32,736 nt of DNA from Victivallaceae bacterium (lineage in GTDB: Bacteria > Verrucomicrobiota > Lentisphaeria > Victivallales > Victivallaceae): positions 1-32,736 of the forward strand of contig JAKSOH010000008.1 of assembly GCA_024405675.1 (NCBI GenBank), read 5' to 3'. Both the position numbers and the translations under genes were made by a program. The notes beneath the pieces were generated by a model. It was not told where the DNA came from and did not search any database. It saw only the letters and a program-made list of their open reading frames with translations. The stretch's first letter is position 1. Each line of letters opens with the position of its first letter. Below are positions 8,046 to 17,619 of the stretch, one piece after another.

Positions 8046-9782
8046 TTACATGGCGTATTTGGCAAGTTCCAAAGCGACGCGATCCTTCACGAATTCCGTG
8101 AGTTCGTCCAGCTTGACGCGCATCGTGTCGCGACTTGCGCGGGTGCGGAATTCCGCCTCTCCGTCGGCCAGTGTACGCGGCGACACCGTGATTCGAAGCG
8201 GAACACCGATGAGATCGGCGTCCTTGAACATCACTCCGGCCTTCTCCCCGCGGTCGTCGAACAGCACCTCTATTCCGGAATCAAGCAGCTGGCCGTACAC
8301 CTTTTCGGCCGCTTCACGCACGCCGTCCTTGCCGATGTCCAATGCGCAGAGTTGCACTTGGAATGGGGAGATGGACATCGGCCAGATCGGACCGAAGTCG
8401 TCATGGCTGTATTCAATGACGGATGGCATCGCCCTGCCGACCCCTATGCCGTAGCATCCCATGACCATCGGCTGGCTTTTGCCTGCCGCGTCAAGAAAGT
8501 TGCAACCCATCGGTTCGGAATACTTGGTCCCTAACTGGAATATGTTTCCGACCTCGATGCCGCGTAGCATCTCCATCGGCTGCCCGTTGATTGGATCCGG
8601 ATCCCCGGGACGCACGGTCGCGATGTCGGCCACCACGTAGTCTACGCCATCGAGATCGCGAGAAGCATTGAAGTTTCGGTAATGGCAATCCGGGCGATTG
8701 GCTCCGACAACCAGATTGCCGCACTCGAACGCGGAACGGTCGAGCACTACCTTGCACTTCCCCTTGCCGATTCCAATCGGGCTGGCATACCCCGGCACCG
8801 CGCCGGCCGCGATGATGGCCGCGTCATCGGCGAACTTGATTTCCGGAATGCGCAATGTGTTGCAAAGCTTGCTCTCGTTGACCTCGAAGTCGCCGCGGAT
8901 CATGGCGAAAACCAGCTCGCCTGTCTTGGCGTTCTGATAGAACACCGCCTTGCCAGTGTTCTCCGCCTTCACCCCAAGGAATCCAGCGACTTCATCTATC
9001 GTCTTCATGCCGGGAGTGGAGACCTCCTCCAGCGGCAGCGGTTCGACTCTGTCAAACGTCCACTTGGCAGTGGCTATCTCGCGGTTCGCCCGATAGGCGC
9101 GGTCCTTTGAAACGAATATCGTGTCCTCCCCGCAATCGCAGATCGCCATGAACTCGTGCGAGACATGGCCTCCCATCATTCCGGAATTGGATTCGATGCT
9201 GAGCACGTTGTCCAGACCGATGCGATGGAATATCCGCTCGTAAGCCTCATGAACCCTGGCATAATATTTCTCGAGATCCGCTTGGTCTGTATGAAAGCTA
9301 TAGGCGTCCTTCATCGTGAATTCCCTGGTGCGGATGAGGCCGGCGCGTGGCCTCGCCTCGTCGCGGTACTTGGTCTGTATCTGGTAGACCATGAGCGGAA
9401 GCTGGCGGTAGCTGTTCACCTCGGTGCGTACCAATGCCGTCACGCATTCCTCATGGGTCATGGCGAGAATCATCGGCTTATCGTTGCGGTCGCTGAACCG
9501 GAGCAGTTCCGCCCCGACCGAATCGTAACGCCCAGACTCCTTCCAGAGATCGGCCGGAAGCACCACCGGCATGAGAATCTCCTGACCGTCGACGCGGTTC
9601 ATCTCCTGACGGATTATCTCGGCGATCTTCGTCACCACCCGCTGCCCCAGCGGCAACAGGGAGAACATTCCGGCCGACACCGGACGGACATAACCGCCGC
9701 GGATCAGAAACTGATGGCTGATTATCTTGGCATCCTTCGGCGCCTCGCGGAGAGTGCGGCCGATCATCTGGGACATTCTCAT
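8046..9782 (-). CDS. proS: Prolyl-tRNA synthetase, bacterial type with editing domain
   Basis: 578 residues, typical of the long bacterial form. It charges tRNA-Pro and hydrolyses mischarged Ala-tRNA-Pro. Class II motifs are visible: RPVSAGMFSLLPLGQRV and NRVDGQEILMPVV (motif 1 region), QTKYRDEARPRAGLIRTREF (motif 2), and GCYGIGVGRAMPSVIEY (motif 3). The segment from about 225 to 400 (TIDEVAGFLGVKAENTGKAV ... VLDRSAFECGNLVVG) is the inserted YbaK-like editing domain, and the last 110 residues are the anticodon-binding domain. The start is ATG with TAAGGAG upstream, 6 bases away. It follows lysC by 10 bases and precedes the nifU-like gene. Confidence 0.96.
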   Translation of the reverse strand: MRMSQMIGRTLREAPKDAKIISHQFLIRGGYVRPVSAGMFSLLPLGQRVVTKIAEIIRQEMNRVDGQEILMPVVLPADLWKESGRYDSVGAELLRFSDRNDKPMILAMTHEECVTALVRTEVNSYRQLPLMVYQIQTKYRDEARPRAGLIRTREFTMKDAYSFHTDQADLEKYYARVHEAYERIFHRIGLDNVLSIESNSGMMGGHVSHEFMAICDCGEDTIFVSKDRAYRANREIATAKWTFDRVEPLPLEEVSTPGMKTIDEVAGFLGVKAENTGKAVFYQNAKTGELVFAMIRGDFEVNESKLCNTLRIPEIKFADDAAIIAAGAVPGYASPIGIGKGKCKVVLDRSAFECGNLVVGANRPDCHYRNFNASRDLDGVDYVVADIATVRPGDPDPINGQPMEMLRGIEVGNIFQLGTKYSEPMGCNFLDAAGKSQPMVMGCYGIGVGRAMPSVIEYSHDDFGPIWPMSISPFQVQLCALDIGKDGVREAAEKVYGQLLDSGIEVLFDDRGEKAGVMFKDADLIGVPLRITVSPRTLADGEAEFRTRASRDTMRVKLDELTEFVKDRVALELAKYAM

Positions 9783-9792
9783 GGATATCTCC

Positions 9793-11199
9793 TTACTTCT
9801 CGTTCTCGACGAACTCGCGATGCAGCGCCTTGACCGCTGCCTCGAAGTCCTCGCGGTTGACGATGAACTGCATGCTCACCTGACGCGGAGACTGGTCGAG
9901 CGCAAGAATGTTGATTCCGTCTCCGGCGAGAGCCTTTGCCGCCCGGGACAGGAATCCCGGGAATTTCATGTTGGATCCGAGCACCGCCACAATCGCCACT
10001 TCGCTGGATCTGATGTCCGCAGTCGGGAACGAGGCCTGCATCTCGTCGATGCACTCCCTGAGCCGACGTGCCTTCTGTGGCAGGAAATGGGTTATGGTGT
10101 TGGCGTTCGTGTTCTTGGCGATGTAACTGATCTCCGTGTGGACCAGTGCCTCGGTGAGCTTGTGGTCGTAGCCGCAGGCGCCGACCATCTCCGGGTCGAA
10201 CACCTCGATGGCGACGATGTCCTTGCGACCGCAAATCATATCTACCCGGGGAGCGGGCGAGACGTAGTCGGAGGAAATCAGCGTTCCCGGGCATCCGGGG
10301 TCGAACGCGTTGTCCACGCGAATCGGAATGCCGTGGCGTTCCATTGCCTTGCTTGCCTTGGGATGAATTGCCTCCATGGCCATGTCCGAAAGCTGGTCGG
10401 CGATGTCGAAGTTGGTATTTCCTATGATGCGCACCTTGTCCGTGCCGATGAGCTTGGGATCGCCGGTCGACAGGTGGAATTCCTTGTGGATCACGCCCTC
10501 CCTGGCTTCGGTGACAACCGCGAGTTTGCTGAAGGTGATTTCGCTATATCCGCGGTCGAACACCGCCATGATGCCACCGCGGCACTTGGCATACCCTGTG
10601 ACGATCGGCATGCACTTCGCGAAGTCCAGTCCCTTCATGTGCTCGGAAATTACATCCTCCATCTCGCCTGCCTCAGCGCGGTCCTTCCATCCGGAAAGGT
10701 CCACCAGCACTGCGTTGACACCATGGTGCTTGAGGATGTCGACGGAATTGAACGCGCTATGCGACTCGCCGACGGAGCTAAGCAGCTCGCGCACCGCAGC
10801 CAGAGGATCCATTCCGCCGAAGAGATTGTAGCTGCGCAGCTGAATCAGATGCTCCAGGCAATCGGTGATGCCGTCCATCCGCTCGTTGACGAAGGCGTCC
10901 GCCTCCTTCAAATCGAGTCCGATTCCGGCGAATGACTTGTTGAACTCGATCATTCGATTCCTAGTCTCTTCGAGCTTGGCGCGCCAATTGCCGCCGGTTT
11001 TGAAACAGCCATAGATGCCCGGCTCGCCGGTTTTCTTGTTCTCGAGCAGCATGTCGGTGATTCCGCCGTATGCGGATACCACGAATACGCGGTTGTAGAG
11101 TTCGGACGGCTTGCGATTGCCGATGAAGATATTGTCCAGCAGTTCGCCGAAGCGGCTCATGCTGGTTCCGCCAATTTTTTCGACGGTATGCATTCCCAT
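9793..11199 (-). CDS. lysC: Aspartate kinase, resembling the ectoine-type (Ask_Ect) subgroup
   Basis: 468 residues. It phosphorylates aspartate as the first step to lysine, threonine and methionine. The kinase domain begins MGMHTVEKIGGTSMSRFGEL, with KIGGTSM as the nucleotide-binding variant of KFGGTS, and includes FDRGYSEITFSKLA and HLSTGDPKLIG. Two C-terminal ACT domains follow: VAIEVFDPEMVGACG to ITHFL, and EVAIVAVLGSNMKFPGFL to the end. From memory, the N-terminal signature, the NANTIT motif and the SPRQVSMQF region look most like the specialised aspartokinases found in ectoine gene clusters; this should be tested by phylogeny. It lies 13 bases after hom, so the two form an aspartate-pathway operon. 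The start is ATG at 11199 with AGGAG 10 bases upstream; ATG at 11193 is an alternative. Confidence 0.93.
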   Translation of the reverse strand: MGMHTVEKIGGTSMSRFGELLDNIFIGNRKPSELYNRVFVVSAYGGITDMLLENKKTGEPGIYGCFKTGGNWRAKLEETRNRMIEFNKSFAGIGLDLKEADAFVNERMDGITDCLEHLIQLRSYNLFGGMDPLAAVRELLSSVGESHSAFNSVDILKHHGVNAVLVDLSGWKDRAEAGEMEDVISEHMKGLDFAKCMPIVTGYAKCRGGIMAVFDRGYSEITFSKLAVVTEAREGVIHKEFHLSTGDPKLIGTDKVRIIGNTNFDIADQLSDMAMEAIHPKASKAMERHGIPIRVDNAFDPGCPGTLISSDYVSPAPRVDMICGRKDIVAIEVFDPEMVGACGYDHKLTEALVHTEISYIAKNTNANTITHFLPQKARRLRECIDEMQASFPTADIRSSEVAIVAVLGSNMKFPGFLSRAAKALAGDGINILALDQSPRQVSMQFIVNREDFEAAVKALHREFVENEK

Positions 11200-11212: not shown

Positions 11213-12505
11213 CTAGATTGTCTCGATGCGTAGCAGTCTGACCGGCGCCCGGTTGAACGGCATCGCGCCGATTTTTTCCAAAGCCTGCTTCATTTCCTTC
11301 TCGGACGCCGGATGCGTGAGCACGACGAGCGGCACGCTGCCGTCGGCGTCGGTATGCTCCTCCTGGATCAGGCTGGCGATGCTTATCGAATGCTCCGATA
11401 GTATCTTGGATATGCCGGCCACCACCCCCGGACAGTCGTCAACGGTGAAACGCAGGTAGTAGCGGCTCTCGATCTCGTCCATCGGAGACAAGCGTTCGTA
11501 GAGCTGCCCCTCCTTGAAGCACGGCACGCGCTGCGAGGTTCCGTAGATTAGGTTGCGGCCGATGTCGATTATATCGGCCACCACCGCGCTGGCCGTGGCC
11601 TGTCGACCGGCGCCGCGTCCGTAGAAAAGCGTGCGGCCGACCATGTCGCCCTCGACCATGACTCCGTTGAAAACGTCGGATATGTTCGCAATCATGGAGT
11701 CCGTCGCAACCAGCGTCGGATGCACGCGCATCTGAATCGCGCCGTTTATGTTCTTGATGATTCCTAGTAGCTTAATCCGGTATCCGGCCTTTGCCGCATA
11801 CTCGATGTCGCGGCTGTCGAGACCATTGATGCCCTCGACATGGACGTCGTCCATCCCAAACCAGCGTCCGCATGCAAGCGAAGCCAAGATCACCGTCTTG
11901 TGGGCGGTGTCAAATCCGTCGATATCAAGCGACGGATTGGCCTCGGCGTAACCGAGTTTCTGGGCATCGGCGAGCACGGATGCGAAATCGGCATGCTCGT
12001 TCTCCATCCTAGTCAGGATATAGTTGCAGGTTCCGTTGAGAATGCCACAAATGCGGTTGATGCGATTTGCTGCCAGCCCCTCGCGCAAGGCCTTGATGAT
12101 CGGGATGCCACCGCCCACGCTAGCCTCGTAGAAGAGATCGACGCCGTTCTTGCGGGCGGCTTCGAACAACTCCGCCCCGTAATGCGCGAGCAGCGCCTTG
12201 TTGGCGGTGACCACCGACTTGCCGGCATTCAGCGCTTGCAGGATAATCTTCCTGGCTATCGTGGTTCCGCCGATGAGCTCGATGACGACATCAGCCGCTT
12301 CGATGGCCTCGGTCGAATCGGTTGTGAGAACGCCGTCCGGAACCTTGACTCCCCTGTCGCGCTTGATGTCAAGGTCGGCTATTCTAGTCAGTTTGAGAAC
12401 GACACCGGTTCGCGTCGCGATGACATCGGCATTTCCCAGCAGAATGTCCACGACTCCGGCTCCGACGGTTCCGAAACCGATTACGCTTACCTTTACTTCC
12501 TTCAC
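11213..12505 (-). CDS. hom: Homoserine dehydrogenase with ACT domain
   Basis: 430 residues from a GTG start at 12505 with GGAGGG 8 bases upstream. It reduces aspartate semialdehyde to homoserine for threonine and methionine synthesis. The N-terminal Rossmann fold has VIGFGTVGAGVVDILLG, and the catalytic domain has EASVGGGIPIIKALREGL, GILNGTCNYILTRME and LGYAEANPSLDIDGFDTAHK. A C-terminal ACT domain (LRFTVDDCPGVVAGISKIL) probably gives feedback control by threonine. It is followed by lysC after 13 bases. Its leader carries a striking inverted repeat and a probable promoter (see 12516-12570), suggesting control of the hom-lysC pair separately from upstream hydF. Confidence 0.96.
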   Translation of the reverse strand: MKEVKVSVIGFGTVGAGVVDILLGNADVIATRTGVVLKLTRIADLDIKRDRGVKVPDGVLTTDSTEAIEAADVVIELIGGTTIARKIILQALNAGKSVVTANKALLAHYGAELFEAARKNGVDLFYEASVGGGIPIIKALREGLAANRINRICGILNGTCNYILTRMENEHADFASVLADAQKLGYAEANPSLDIDGFDTAHKTVILASLACGRWFGMDDVHVEGINGLDSRDIEYAAKAGYRIKLLGIIKNINGAIQMRVHPTLVATDSMIANISDVFNGVMVEGDMVGRTLFYGRGAGRQATASAVVADIIDIGRNLIYGTSQRVPCFKEGQLYERLSPMDEIESRYYLRFTVDDCPGVVAGISKILSEHSISIASLIQEEHTDADGSVPLVVLTHPASEKEMKQALEKIGAMPFNRAPVRLLRIETI

Positions 12506-12515
12506 TTTGAATCCC

Positions 12516-12570
12516 TCCGGTGTATGTTGAGTGTTAAATAATGATTATTATTTAAATAACATACACCGGA
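12516..12570 (-). promoter_or_regulatory. Nested inverted repeat over hom promoter and ribosome site
   Basis: A perfect 13-base inverted repeat, TCCGGTGTATGTT at 12516-12528 and its complement at 12558-12570, encloses a second 9-base repeat, TTAAATAAT at 12534-12542 with its complement at 12547-12555, closed by GATT. As RNA from the minus strand this folds into one long hairpin whose last stem bases run into the hom Shine-Dalgarno (GGAGGG). As DNA, the 13-base half-sites are 42 bases apart centre to centre, about four helical turns. No T-run follows, so it is not a standard terminator. It may be an operator pair or an RNA element that hides the hom ribosome site. Confidence 0.75.
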
Positions 12571-12586
12571 AACCGGAGCAATTCAA
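12558..12586 (-). promoter_or_regulatory. Putative promoter for hom-lysC
   Basis: Minus strand: TTGAAT (12586-12581), a 17-base spacer and TATGTT (12563-12558). Transcription would start near 12551, inside the nested repeat, so a transcript made here would lack the distal 13-base arm. By consensus only. Confidence 0.4.
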
Positions 12587-12592
12587 AACGGA

Positions 12593-13801
12593 CTAGGCGT
12601 TCTCCTTCACCATGGCCAACGCCATGGGAAACACCGTTAGCGCGCGTCCGAGAACACCGGTGCAGGCCGAGATGCAGACTCCGTAGTTCGTAATCGGCAC
12701 CCCGTGTGATTCGGCCTCGGCTATTCGCGACAGTTGCTCGCGCCGGCTGATCATGCATCCCCCGCAATGAACCACCAACGCATATTTTCCGAGGTCGTCC
12801 GGGAAATCGTGCCCAGAGCACACGTCGAACTTCAGCTGTTTCCCGGTCTTACGGCATAGCAAATTAGGTATTTTCACCCGTCCGATGTCATCGTCCGCGG
12901 CATGATGAGTGCAGGCCTCTGCTATGAGAATCGAATCCCCGTCGCTGAGTCGTCCAATGGCTGCTGCTCCGGCGGCGAAGCGGGCGATGTCTCCCCGCCA
13001 GTTTGCCATCAGAATCGAAAACGTCGTGAGCGGTATTTCCGGCGGTGTGGCGGACACGATCCTGGCCACGACCTGGGAATCGCAGATTACGAGATCCGGC
13101 TTCCGGCTCAAGCTGTCGAGCAAAACGGAGTATTCCGACTCTCGAACCACCAGCGCGGAGGCGGCCGAATCCAGCGCATCGCGGATGGCCTGCACCTGCG
13201 GCAATATCAGCCTTCCTCTTGGAGCCTGGCTGTCTATTGGAACGACCATCACCACCAGGTCTCCACATCCGGCGAGTCCGGCCAGCAACCCCTGCGACTC
13301 GAACAATGAATCCGGAGCCACAGCCAATACCTTTTTCGTGAAAACCGCGAGAAACTGGCTTCTCGATCCAATGTCCGCCGCGTCGACAACGATGGTGTCT
13401 TCGGCGACTGCAACCTTCGCCCCTGGCGAATTGAGCACCTTGATTATCGGAATTTTCCTAGACTCGGCATCTTCGATCAACGCCTTTTCCACGGGGCCAA
13501 GAACCGCCGATTCGCAAACCAAGACCATCACGTCGATCCGGTCCAAGGCCTTTCGCGAAGCCCGCTCCCGCGCCCCGCCGAGCGTCCCCGAGTCTCCGAA
13601 CCCGGCGGTATCGACCAGCACCACCGGTCCGACCGGCGACAATTCCATCGTCTTCTCCACGACATCCGTCGTCGTTCCTGGCACCGGCGCCACGCTGGAA
13701 ACATCCTGTCCGGAAACCAGATTGACCAGCGTTGACTTGCCGGAATTGGTCTTGCCGAAGAATCCCAGTTGCAAACGCAACGATTTCGGCGTGCCGTTCA
13801 T
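12593..13801 (-). CDS. hydF: [FeFe]-hydrogenase maturation GTPase HydF
   Basis: 402 residues, family length. HydF is the scaffold on which the di-iron subcluster made by HydE and HydG is assembled and passed to apo-[FeFe]-hydrogenase. The N-terminal GTPase domain has G1 FFGKTNSGKS (about 14-23), G2 region PVPGTTTD and G3 VDTAGFGD. The C-terminal cluster-binding domain has EACTHHAADDDIG and, about 50 residues later, VVHCGGCMISRREQ, the C-x(n)-HCxxC arrangement of HydF. The gene implies hydrogen metabolism in an anaerobe. hydE, hydG and the hydrogenase are not in the window. Its start overlaps the trmL stop as ATGA, so it sits in a run of RNA-modification genes. Confidence 0.95.
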   Translation of the reverse strand: MNGTPKSLRLQLGFFGKTNSGKSTLVNLVSGQDVSSVAPVPGTTTDVVEKTMELSPVGPVVLVDTAGFGDSGTLGGARERASRKALDRIDVMVLVCESAVLGPVEKALIEDAESRKIPIIKVLNSPGAKVAVAEDTIVVDAADIGSRSQFLAVFTKKVLAVAPDSLFESQGLLAGLAGCGDLVVMVVPIDSQAPRGRLILPQVQAIRDALDSAASALVVRESEYSVLLDSLSRKPDLVICDSQVVARIVSATPPEIPLTTFSILMANWRGDIARFAAGAAAIGRLSDGDSILIAEACTHHAADDDIGRVKIPNLLCRKTGKQLKFDVCSGHDFPDDLGKYALVVHCGGCMISRREQLSRIAEAESHGVPITNYGVCISACTGVLGRALTVFPMALAMVKENA

Positions 13802-14269: not shown

Positions 14270-15592
14270 TTAGAATACCCTCTTCATCCTCGCCGCAAAC
14301 ATGTAGTCGTTGTCGAATCCATGTCCCATGAATCGCGCCATTCCGCCGGTATCGACGCCGTCCAGCGGATTGGTGAAACAGTCAAGTTCGAACTGCGGAT
14401 TGTCGGTCAGGAACTTCGTGACCACATCCTCGTTCTCCGCCTTGAACACGGAGCACGTGGCATAGACCAGGCGTCCGCCGATTTTTACTGCCGGAGCGAA
14501 CCCGGACAATATCGAAAGTTGCCGAGCGGCACAGGACGCCGGCTCCTCGTCCGGCAACAGCCATTGCCTTCCTGGATTACGGCGCCACACTCCGGAACCA
14601 GTGCACGGCGCGTCAACAAGCACTCCGTCATACGGGTGTCTGACCAGCTGTCGACCGGCCGGTTTCGTCATCACGTTGCCGTAACCAGCCCTTCTCACCC
14701 GCGTCCTGAGTTCCTCCAGCGCGGATTCGCGGATATCCGAGGCGACCACGGTGCCCCGGCCCTCCATCATCTCCGCCAACTGCAGTGTCTTGCCACCGGC
14801 TCCGGCACAGGCGTCAAGCCATCTTTCGCCACGGCGCGGTGAGCAGGCCATGCCGATGCATTGGCTGGCGAGATCCTGTATCTCGAACATTCCGCTCCGA
14901 AATTCCTCCGTAGTGTACAACGCCGGACTGCCGGCTGGAATCCGAACCGCCCCTTGTACCGGGAAATCCGTTTCAGGTTCGATTCCGAGTTCTGCCAGAC
15001 GCGCCATCGTTCGGTCGCGGAACTCGTCCCTGACCCTAATCCACATCGGCGGACGACTGGTCATGGTTCCAAGAAACTCCTTTACGGAAAAACCATCGGG
15101 CAGAAGATCCAAGATACGTTCCGGAACGAGATCCGACGCAAGGAAATCCACCTTTTCCCCTATCGCGGCGGCAAACGCCGCAGCGCGACGCGACTGGCTT
15201 CCACCGAGAGACAATCCGCGCAGACCGAGCTCTATTGCGAAATCGCGCAAATAATCGCGGTCATATCCGTCCACATGAAGCGCGAAGAACAACAGCGATA
15301 ACATCTCCCTGCGGGTAAGGGTCAGTTCTAGCGTCTCTATTCCTGACGAGAATTCGGCTCCCATCAGCTTGCGGGCCCACCCCCAGTACCTCAGTAGTGC
15401 GAACACCGCAGCCGATATCATTCTGCGGTCCCGCGATCCGAACTTACGGTTGCTTCTGAAAAAATCTGTCAACACCCGGTCGGCGGGCGCATGGTCCCGG
15501 AAAAACGCCTGCAATACCGCCCTCGCCGCCTCCTCTGCGCCGAAAAGCTGCGCCCGCATCTTGCCCGGGGTCAGTTTGGAATCGTCGTTCAT
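14270..15592 (-). CDS. rsmB: 16S rRNA (cytosine967-C5)-methyltransferase
   Basis: 440 residues. The N-terminal about 140 residues resemble the NusB-like RNA-binding domain (GAEEAARAVLQAFFRDHAPA ...), and the C-terminal part is the m5C methyltransferase. Visible are the SAM loop LDACAGAGGKTLQLAEMM, the catalytic-site motif VLVDAPCTGSGVWRRNPG with its Cys, and LVYATCSVFKAENEDVV with the nucleophilic Cys. The two-cysteine pattern and NusB-like domain indicate RsmB rather than RsmF. The start ATG overlaps the upstream helicase stop (ATGA), and one base separates its stop from trmL. Confidence 0.92.
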   Translation of the reverse strand: MNDDSKLTPGKMRAQLFGAEEAARAVLQAFFRDHAPADRVLTDFFRSNRKFGSRDRRMISAAVFALLRYWGWARKLMGAEFSSGIETLELTLTRREMLSLLFFALHVDGYDRDYLRDFAIELGLRGLSLGGSQSRRAAAFAAAIGEKVDFLASDLVPERILDLLPDGFSVKEFLGTMTSRPPMWIRVRDEFRDRTMARLAELGIEPETDFPVQGAVRIPAGSPALYTTEEFRSGMFEIQDLASQCIGMACSPRRGERWLDACAGAGGKTLQLAEMMEGRGTVVASDIRESALEELRTRVRRAGYGNVMTKPAGRQLVRHPYDGVLVDAPCTGSGVWRRNPGRQWLLPDEEPASCAARQLSILSGFAPAVKIGGRLVYATCSVFKAENEDVVTKFLTDNPQFELDCFTNPLDGVDTGGMARFMGHGFDNDYMFAARMKRVF

Positions 15593-17619
15593 TTCAAGTT
15601 CCTGAGTTTTTCAAAGATATCCTCGAAGGCCTTGTGCAGGTCCTCATCGCTTACCGGTTTTACAATGTCCTCGCCATCGCAACGGTCGACCGTAGTCCCG
15701 AGTTGAGCGAGAAACGGGGACGGCATCGCCGGTTTCGTGACGCCACGCTGCATACGCTTGCGCGCCCTAAGGAGGAAAAGCTCCTTCCTCGCCCTGGTGA
15801 CAGCCACATAGAACAAACGTTTTTCCTCGTCCATCGACCCCTCTTCGATCGCACGTTCATGTGGAAAAATGCCGGTTTCCACGGCGGCCACGAACACCAC
15901 GGGGAACTCCAGTCCCTTGGCCGCATGCACAGTGGATAAAACCACGGCGTCTCCCTCGGTTTCCGAGTCCTTGTCCTTTTGTTCGAGAAGCGAACAGCTG
16001 TCCAGATACTCCTGAAGCGTCAATCCGAAATGGGACTTCTCATATTGCGCGATTCCGTTTATGAACTCATCAACGTTCTCGCGGCGCATCTTCGCATCCT
16101 TTATGTCCTTGTATATCCGCTGCAATCCTCCGGTGTAACCGATGTCCTCAAGATACGATGCCGTCTTCGCGGCTAGATTACAGGGAGATGAAAAAGCTTC
16201 TCTAGCCCGACCGATCGCGGAGGCGAATTCCTCCGCGCCCGCGGCCGCCGTGCTTGACAGCTTCGATAGAAAACCGGAATCGAAGAAACCGGAAAGCATG
16301 CTCTTGTGATCCGCGGTCCGTCTGATTCTCAGCAAATCCGCCGTTTTGCCGCCGAGTCCGCGCGGCGGTGTCGAAAGCACCCGCAGCAAGCTCTGGTCAT
16401 CCTGCGGATTCACTATGAGGCCGAGATATGCAAGCGCGTTCTTTATTTCCTGCCGCTGGAAGAATGGCTGCCCGCCGTATACCCGATAAGGTATCCCGCA
16501 AGAGCGGAGTGTGGTTTCTATCTGACGCGATATCGCATTCGATCTGTAAAGTATCGCAAAGTCGGAATAGCGGGCTCCCGACTCATGTCGTTTTTGTTCG
16601 ATCACATCTCCGATGAACGAGGCCTCCGCCTCGCCACTGTCAAGCGTCACCACCTTCGGTATTTCGCCGAAACCCTCGGCGCTCCACAGTTTCTTCTCGT
16701 GTCTCCGGCCGCCGCCGGATCCGATTATTTCGTTGGCGACCCCTAGTATGGCGCCGGTCGAGCGATAGTTCTGCTCCAGACGTACGACCTTGGCCGCCGG
16801 ATAGCGATCAGGGAAGTCCAGGATGTTATCGATATCGGCACCGCGCCACGAATATATGCTCTGGTCGTCATCACCGACCACGCACAGATTCGGATGTTCT
16901 CCTCCAAGCATCCTAAGTATCTCGTACTGAGCATAGTTCGTATCCTGATATTCGTCTACCAGGAGATAGCGGTAGCGGGACTTATACATTTCAAGCACAT
17001 CCGGATGCTCCGAGAAAAGTCGCCAGACGAGGAGCAGCATATCGTCGAAATCCACCTGGTTCTGTTCCTCCAGCATGGCCTGGTATTCTTCGTAAATGGC
17101 CGCGCTGATCGCTTGAAAGTTCGTGCTTCCGGCATCGCGTCTGGCGGCCGCCGGAGTCATCAATCGGTTCTTCCAGTGACTGATCATGGCGAAGGCCTCC
17201 GCCGTGTGAAACCCCTCTCCGTTGCACCCCAGTCGGCCGGCCGCCTGCTTGAACGTACCGAACTGGTCGCTCTCGTCGGCGATGGTGAAACTCGGCAGAT
17301 ATCCCAGCTTCGAAATTTCGCGACGCAGGATCCGCCCGCAAAAGCTGTGGAATGTTCCAAGCGTCACATTCTTGGCCATTTCCCCGACAAGTCCGTCCAG
17401 ACGCTCGCGCATCTCGCGGGCCGCCTTGTTGGTGAATGTAAGTCCCAGAATGCTTTCTGCCGGAACACCGGTCGCCAGCATGTAGGCAATCCGATAGGTT
17501 ATGACCCTCGTCTTTCCGGTTCCGGCGCCGGCCAGCACCAGCACCGGACCATTGACGGTCGATGCGGCCTCGCCCTGGCGGTCGTTAAGCGCCGCCAGTA
17601 TTTCACTCCGGGACATCAT
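15589..17619 (-). CDS. uvrD: UvrD/PcrA/Rep-family 3'-5' DNA helicase
   Basis: 676 residues, normal for the superfamily 1A helicases that unwind DNA in nucleotide-excision and mismatch repair and clear stalled forks. Motifs in order: LNDRQGEAAST (Q motif), VLAGAGTGKTRVITYRIAYM (I), LTFTNKAAREMRERL (Ia), LLVDEYQDTNYAQYEIL (II), VVGDDDQSIYSWRGADI (III), LEQNYRSTGAIL (IV), STVHAAKGLEFPVVFV with ETGIFPHERA (V), and RLFYVAVTRARKELFL (VI). The C-terminal tail is short. Two ATG codons stand in tandem at 17619 and 17616 with a weak ribosome site. It lies 20 bases after purO and overlaps rsmB. UvrD and PcrA cannot be separated by eye. Confidence 0.93.
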   Translation of the reverse strand: MMSRSEILAALNDRQGEAASTVNGPVLVLAGAGTGKTRVITYRIAYMLATGVPAESILGLTFTNKAAREMRERLDGLVGEMAKNVTLGTFHSFCGRILRREISKLGYLPSFTIADESDQFGTFKQAAGRLGCNGEGFHTAEAFAMISHWKNRLMTPAAARRDAGSTNFQAISAAIYEEYQAMLEEQNQVDFDDMLLLVWRLFSEHPDVLEMYKSRYRYLLVDEYQDTNYAQYEILRMLGGEHPNLCVVGDDDQSIYSWRGADIDNILDFPDRYPAAKVVRLEQNYRSTGAILGVANEIIGSGGGRRHEKKLWSAEGFGEIPKVVTLDSGEAEASFIGDVIEQKRHESGARYSDFAILYRSNAISRQIETTLRSCGIPYRVYGGQPFFQRQEIKNALAYLGLIVNPQDDQSLLRVLSTPPRGLGGKTADLLRIRRTADHKSMLSGFFDSGFLSKLSSTAAAGAEEFASAIGRAREAFSSPCNLAAKTASYLEDIGYTGGLQRIYKDIKDAKMRRENVDEFINGIAQYEKSHFGLTLQEYLDSCSLLEQKDKDSETEGDAVVLSTVHAAKGLEFPVVFVAAVETGIFPHERAIEEGSMDEEKRLFYVAVTRARKELFLLRARKRMQRGVTKPAMPSPFLAQLGTTVDRCDGEDIVKPVSDEDLHKAFEDIFEKLRNLK

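Follow-up and report, generated by a model that had tools for sequence, protein, structure and literature searches.

The question raised by this locus is why nearly the whole gap between hydF and hom in a Victivallaceae bacterium reads as one palindrome, stretching from the predicted promoter of hom to its start codon. The window, that is, the entire 32,736-nt stretch of DNA analysed here, comes from a draft genome (1.64 Mb in 134 contigs, with an estimated completeness of 71%), whose closest named relatives, judged by hom, are Lentisphaeria (L045 and L046, 58% identity). The genes hom, lysC, and proS are closely packed on the minus strand (Table 1), and the identities assigned to the first two by the first-pass annotation agree with family matches above cut-off; proS is possibly the last gene of the hom-lysC unit. 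Among the 41 loci used for comparison, lysC follows hom in all 30 of L015-L044 (the window and 29 relatives), and the other 11, 8 of which had been fetched mainly upstream of hom, gave no lysC. On the other side of the gap, hydF overlaps trmL by 4 bp on the minus strand and is separated from hom by 87 nt. Two ORFs further upstream (14270-15592 and 15589-17619), which by eye we take to resemble an rRNA methyltransferase and a UvrD/PcrA helicase, are packed as tightly as trmL and hydF. The gap itself is AT-rich: the G+C content drops to 38% at 12500-12599, whereas all remaining bins of 100 bases between 11500 and 13499 have 52-65%.

Table 1. Features of the hydF-hom-lysC-proS region (positions are those of the window)
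Feature	Position	Strand	Detail	Basis
hydF	12593..13801	-	upstream neighbour of hom; read-through RNA would carry both arms	TIGR03918 above cut-off
Outer left arm	12581..12587	-	TTTGAAT; contains the -35 TTGAAT (12586-12581)	sequence
hom promoter	12558..12586	-	-35 TTGAAT (12586-12581), 17-nt spacer, -10 TATGTT (12563-12558)	
Distal 13-bp arm	12558..12570	-	TCCGGTGTATGTT on the minus strand; last six bases are the -10	
Inner left arm	12547..12555	-	part of the 9-bp repeat; contains the transcript start predicted near 12551 (inferred)	
Inner right arm	12534..12542	-	9-bp repeat	sequence
Proximal 13-bp arm	12516..12528	-	AACATACACCGGA on the minus strand; takes in the first GGA of the Shine-Dalgarno sequence	
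Shine-Dalgarno sequence of hom	12513..12518	-	GGAGGG	sequence; pairing computed
Outer right arm	12506..12512	-	ATTCAAA; adjoins the start codon	sequence, fold
hom, homoserine dehydrogenase	11213..12505	-	GTG start at 12505	NF004976 above cut-off
lysC, aspartate kinase	9793..11199	-	13 nt after hom	NF006614 above cut-off
proS, proline-tRNA ligase	8046..9782	-	10 nt after lysC	NF006625 above cut-off

The first-pass annotation had described a nested inverted repeat in this gap, and its geometry was recovered in full. The 13-base repeat (TCCGGTGTATGTT at 12516-12528 and AACATACACCGGA at 12558-12570 on the forward strand) is perfect, with 29 nt between its arms, and the 9-base repeat (TTAAATAAT and ATTATTTAA, in the same sense) is perfect, with a 4-nt loop; the centers of the two 13-bp sites lie 42 bp apart, which corresponds to four helical turns. 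The distal arm was said to overlap the predicted -10 and in fact covers all of it, and the proximal arm, which was said to touch the Shine-Dalgarno (SD) sequence, includes half of it. The palindrome is, moreover, larger than first reported. An outer 7-bp pairing had been overlooked, and with it the structure runs from 12587, at the -35, to 12506, the last base before the GTG codon, so that the 7-, 13-, and 9-bp pairings occupy 82 of the 87 bases of the gap; paired without gaps over 36 nt, the two halves show 72% complementarity.

The inverted repeat is real and beyond chance. It is the longest perfect one with a loop of up to 60 nt in the window, where the next has 11 bp, and 13-bp arms appeared in none of 20 Markov windows and in one of 2000 Markov copies of the gap. 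As RNA, the 87-nt gap folds at -29.5 kcal/mol, compared with -12.9 ± 2.7 kcal/mol for 200 shuffles, none of which was as good (z -6.1); folding it as DNA gave a z of -6.7, and folding it in a 141-nt context gave a z of -3.1, with 1 of 200 shuffles as good. When the 5' arm was omitted, the fold reached only -5.3 kcal/mol (z +0.4). An assembly fault is an unlikely source of the palindrome because the genes on either side are intact and the hom promoter lies at the ancestral distance. A dispersed mobile palindrome of the REP or MITE kind was also rejected, given that only partial matches of 13-19 nt exist elsewhere in the genome, estimated to be 71% complete.

The promoter that had been predicted at 12558-12586 was missing from a simple promoter scan because only 8 of its 12 consensus bases match; its support comes from relatives, most of which have a promoter at a similar position. 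We searched 33 other genomes of the genus and obtained a hom match in 30; in every one of these, the top-scoring promoter-like site before hom shows a -10 of TATATT preceded by TGC. The distance from this -10 to the start of hom is 42-58 nt in 24 relatives and 109-125 nt in 6, compared with 52 nt in the window; the starts of the relatives are extrapolated from tblastn, so that some distances may be a codon or two off. In G009, whose hom is 79% identical over the part present and has hydF directly upstream, the promoter TTGACG-17-TATATT aligns with the window site, as does the site in G006. The hom promoter of the window is homologous to that of the relatives and represents the ancestral hom-lysC promoter. 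A divergent promoter on the plus strand was rejected, since TTGAAT and TATGTT lie only 10 nt apart in the inverted copy and inspection revealed no supported plus-strand gene.

Several features of the relatives' hom regions were observed in passing. The sequence TTGACGCGCGCGCG is common to the -35/spacer part of the hom promoters of the closest relatives at L017, L016, and L048 (in G006, G026, and G009, respectively) and has been lost from the window; in those three loci, this promoter part is far more alike than the leader downstream of it. In G006, the hydF match upstream of hom (L065; G006:C22:44333-45547) reads with one internal TGA, and about 650 bases without an evident gene lie between this match and hom. 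In five members of the genus (L027, L028, L031, L039, and L040), the leader of hom is about 109-125 nt long and forms strong stems. Outer arms of the type ACTGTT..GAAAACC / GGTTTTCAACAGT, enclosing an inner hairpin that varies, are common to three of them (L027, L031, and L039); the leaders of L027, L031, and L040 gave no match in Rfam.

What the palindrome does, if anything, is best explained by a lock against read-through transcription, a reading to which we would give a little less than an even chance. The gap carries the ancestral promoter, whose leader has turned, in this lineage alone, into an inverted copy of it that is nearly complete and extends into the SD sequence. RNA started at the promoter, at a position near 12551 that is predicted by spacing from the -10, would lack the 5' arm and leave the SD sequence largely open. 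RNA coming from the trmL-hydF side would possess both arms, snap back, and bury the SD sequence, and translation of hom should therefore depend on its own promoter. Read-through from hydF into hom seems plausible because trmL and hydF overlap, hom, lysC, and proS are closely packed, and a search for terminators in the hydF-hom gap gave none; no GC-rich stem followed by a T run was found anywhere in 12000-13000.

In the computed folds, the SD sequence has a mean unpaired probability of 0.15 in RNA that includes the end of hydF versus 0.47 in RNA from 12551, and opening of the region from -15 to +3 costs 15.0 kcal/mol in the former versus 4.8 kcal/mol in the latter. The start codon behaves in the opposite manner, being 0.60 unpaired in the read-through RNA versus 0.29 in the promoter RNA, and this speaks against a plain on/off switch. 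The fold could also be disturbed by translating ribosomes that terminate at the hydF stop codon (12593-12595), near the 5' arm. The excess of the opening cost in read-through RNA over that in native RNA is the largest among 57 hom loci, with the window included and the relatives treated alike. Among 49 genes of the same genome with a scored promoter, hom ranks second in this respect; the first is a gene on contig C63 whose neighbor is divergent, which makes the read-through RNA computed for it unnatural. In 192 upstream regions from about 381 kb of the genome, perfect pairing to the SD region extends to 13 at hom and to at most 8 elsewhere. A genome-wide habit of promoter-SD pairing was accordingly rejected: no region but hom goes beyond 8 bp, and lengths of 9-10 arose in 5 of 576 shuffles.

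The evidence from relatives weighs on the other side. The hairpin of the window was found in none of 82 distinct relative loci, including the closest one with the same hydF-hom order (G009). The idea in the first-pass annotation of a hairpin formed only in transcripts from hydF is sound as far as folding and the phage T4 precedent discussed below are concerned, but related genomes lacking the repeat, which that annotation had itself set against the idea, are exactly what was encountered. Perfect complementarity between promoter and leader extends over at most 4-8 nt in the 30 relatives of the genus, compared with 13 nt in the window. Of 57 loci, again with the window included, two reached p ≤ 0.005 against leader shuffles (200 for each locus, uncorrected), namely, the window and L052 (G057), which belongs to genus g20 of another family. 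Among a further 29 loci from the family of g20, three of which (L118, L121, and L124) repeat sites already counted, the same shuffle test gave that value for L118 alone, which is identical in site to L052. The 6-bp pairing ACGGTG in G009 was rejected as a conserved hairpin because its p against leader shuffles was not ≤ 0.1, and the gap DNA gave only short or partial matches against 34 genomes of the genus, the best besides itself being 48 nt at 80% (G017). These comparisons indicate that the hairpin is lineage-specific. Four g20 loci (L118, L124, L126, and L128) have a different 10-bp repeat (AAACACGGAA / TTCCGTGTTT in L118), which flanks the -10 of hom away from the SD sequence. Across the four sequences, pairing is retained in 97.4% of 39 cells, there is one double change besides two kinds of G-U, and the covariation is not above that of shuffles, 146 of 500 of which reach the one pair changed on both sides.

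Because the hairpin is missing from all 82 relative loci, a neutral or nearly neutral young quasipalindrome is nearly as likely as the lock. A template switch during replication might have copied the promoter in inverted form into the leader, and the product might simply be tolerated, with the promoter and the SD sequence still working and little read-through arriving. Such an origin, which we regard as quite possible, would fit not only the restriction to this lineage but also the similarity of the arms, which is not confined to the functional parts but spans everything between the -35 and the AT-rich tip. The leader length, 52 nt in the window and 47-52 nt in G009, G006, and G026, is unchanged, as would be expected if sequence was overwritten and not inserted, and template-switch mutations of quasipalindromes are known to make the arms of inverted repeats alike, according to excerpts of the reports concerned (PMC7202029, PMC8604942). 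Against neutrality, it is precisely at the -10 and on into the SD sequence that the arms match without a flaw, and the template switch itself is presumed.

The first-pass annotation had also suggested paired operators, by which a regulator of the aspartate pathway would bind the two 13-bp sites and block the promoter. The perfection of the sites, their spacing by four helical turns, and the position of one on the -10 would suit this arrangement, but we consider it unlikely in view of where the arm sequence recurs. The core CGGTGTATRTT occurs eight times in the genome versus zero times for a reversed control, and two of the eight are the arms themselves. Four of the other six have TTG at a 17-nt spacer (L138, L140, L141, and L143), one, which lacks a -35 of this kind, is located 34 nt ahead of an ORF (L139), and one is inside an open frame of the opposite strand (L142). 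The L141 site, in what we take by eye to be the gap between rpoC-like and rpsL-like ORFs, shares 16 nt with the hom promoter. The recurrence of the core mostly at promoter-like sites before unrelated genes weakens the operator reading, and the distal arm, made up of the spacer end and the -10, is ordinary promoter sequence of this organism and not evidence for a pathway operator. In addition, no second paired site was found in the genome, and the relatives retain the promoter and not the sites.

An action of the stem on the hydF message, through protection or processing of its 3' end (as an exonuclease barrier or an RNase III site) or a pause in transcription, is very improbable: the long stem does start 6 nt after the hydF stop codon, but no T run follows it, no terminator-like site was found, and hydF of G009 has no such stem downstream. 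The missing T run and terminator-like site also led us to reject an intrinsic terminator or attenuator. The earlier statement that no known riboswitch is recognizable here was upheld, because no Rfam covariance model matched the window at its gathering score (three chance-level matches fell far below) and none matched eight relative hom loci; lysine, threonine, methionine, and SAM riboswitches and other Rfam leaders were thereby rejected. In genus g28 (L114, L116, and L125), we observed, some 40-80 nt ahead of hom and downstream of the best promoter-like site, a hairpin that resembles an intrinsic terminator and carries a T run; it might be either the end of an upstream gene or an attenuator.

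A broader proposal is that a housekeeping biosynthetic operon copied its own promoter in inverted form and thereby gained a lock, which blinds its translation to all transcription except that from this promoter; we regard it as doubtful. If it is true, promoter-to-SD snap-backs would be a simple and repeatedly evolvable way to insulate an operon from its neighbors without a terminator. A working lock, which selection might then maintain through the lowered translation of read-through RNA, would mean that a phage-style device against read-through exists in a bacterial group that has been little studied, on an ordinary operon of the chromosome, and that one small mutational event can couple promoter use with the start of translation. 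If it does not work, the locus illustrates cleanly how a young palindrome can mimic a regulatory device, and it urges caution in inferring function from fold energy alone.

Comparable arrangements are known from a mobile element and a phage. In the fold-back inhibition of IS10/Tn10, the transposase start is covered by a fold in RNA that reads in from outside and stays free in RNA made from the promoter of the element itself; the difference is that IS10/Tn10 is a mobile element, and the gap studied here serves a biosynthetic operon. The text on ISPpu9, in the excerpt consulted, speaks of antisense control and not of fold-back inhibition (PMC8450116). The titles and abstract openings of the literature retrieved describe no such device in bacterial chromosomal operons, nor in work on Lentisphaera hom, riboswitches, or promoters. 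Quasipalindrome template switching, for its part, provides an origin and not a function, and at hom the event is presumed. The closest parallel lies in gene e (lysozyme) and I-TevI of phage T4. Excerpts of the relevant reports describe that the SD sequence is held in a helix in RNA from upstream promoters and that a promoter situated within the DNA that encodes the helix's 5' strand yields RNA without the strand, which is translated (PMC3014915, PMC2988022). Those systems, as far as the excerpts go, have been measured, are timed by phage late promoters, and are shared with related phages, whereas the hom hairpin is computed, has a housekeeping-type promoter, belongs to a bacterial operon, and is absent from relatives. 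The anatomy is nonetheless the same: a promoter lies within the 5' strand, as judged from sequence and homology and with a start predicted near 12551, and the SD sequence is buried, by computation, in RNA started upstream.
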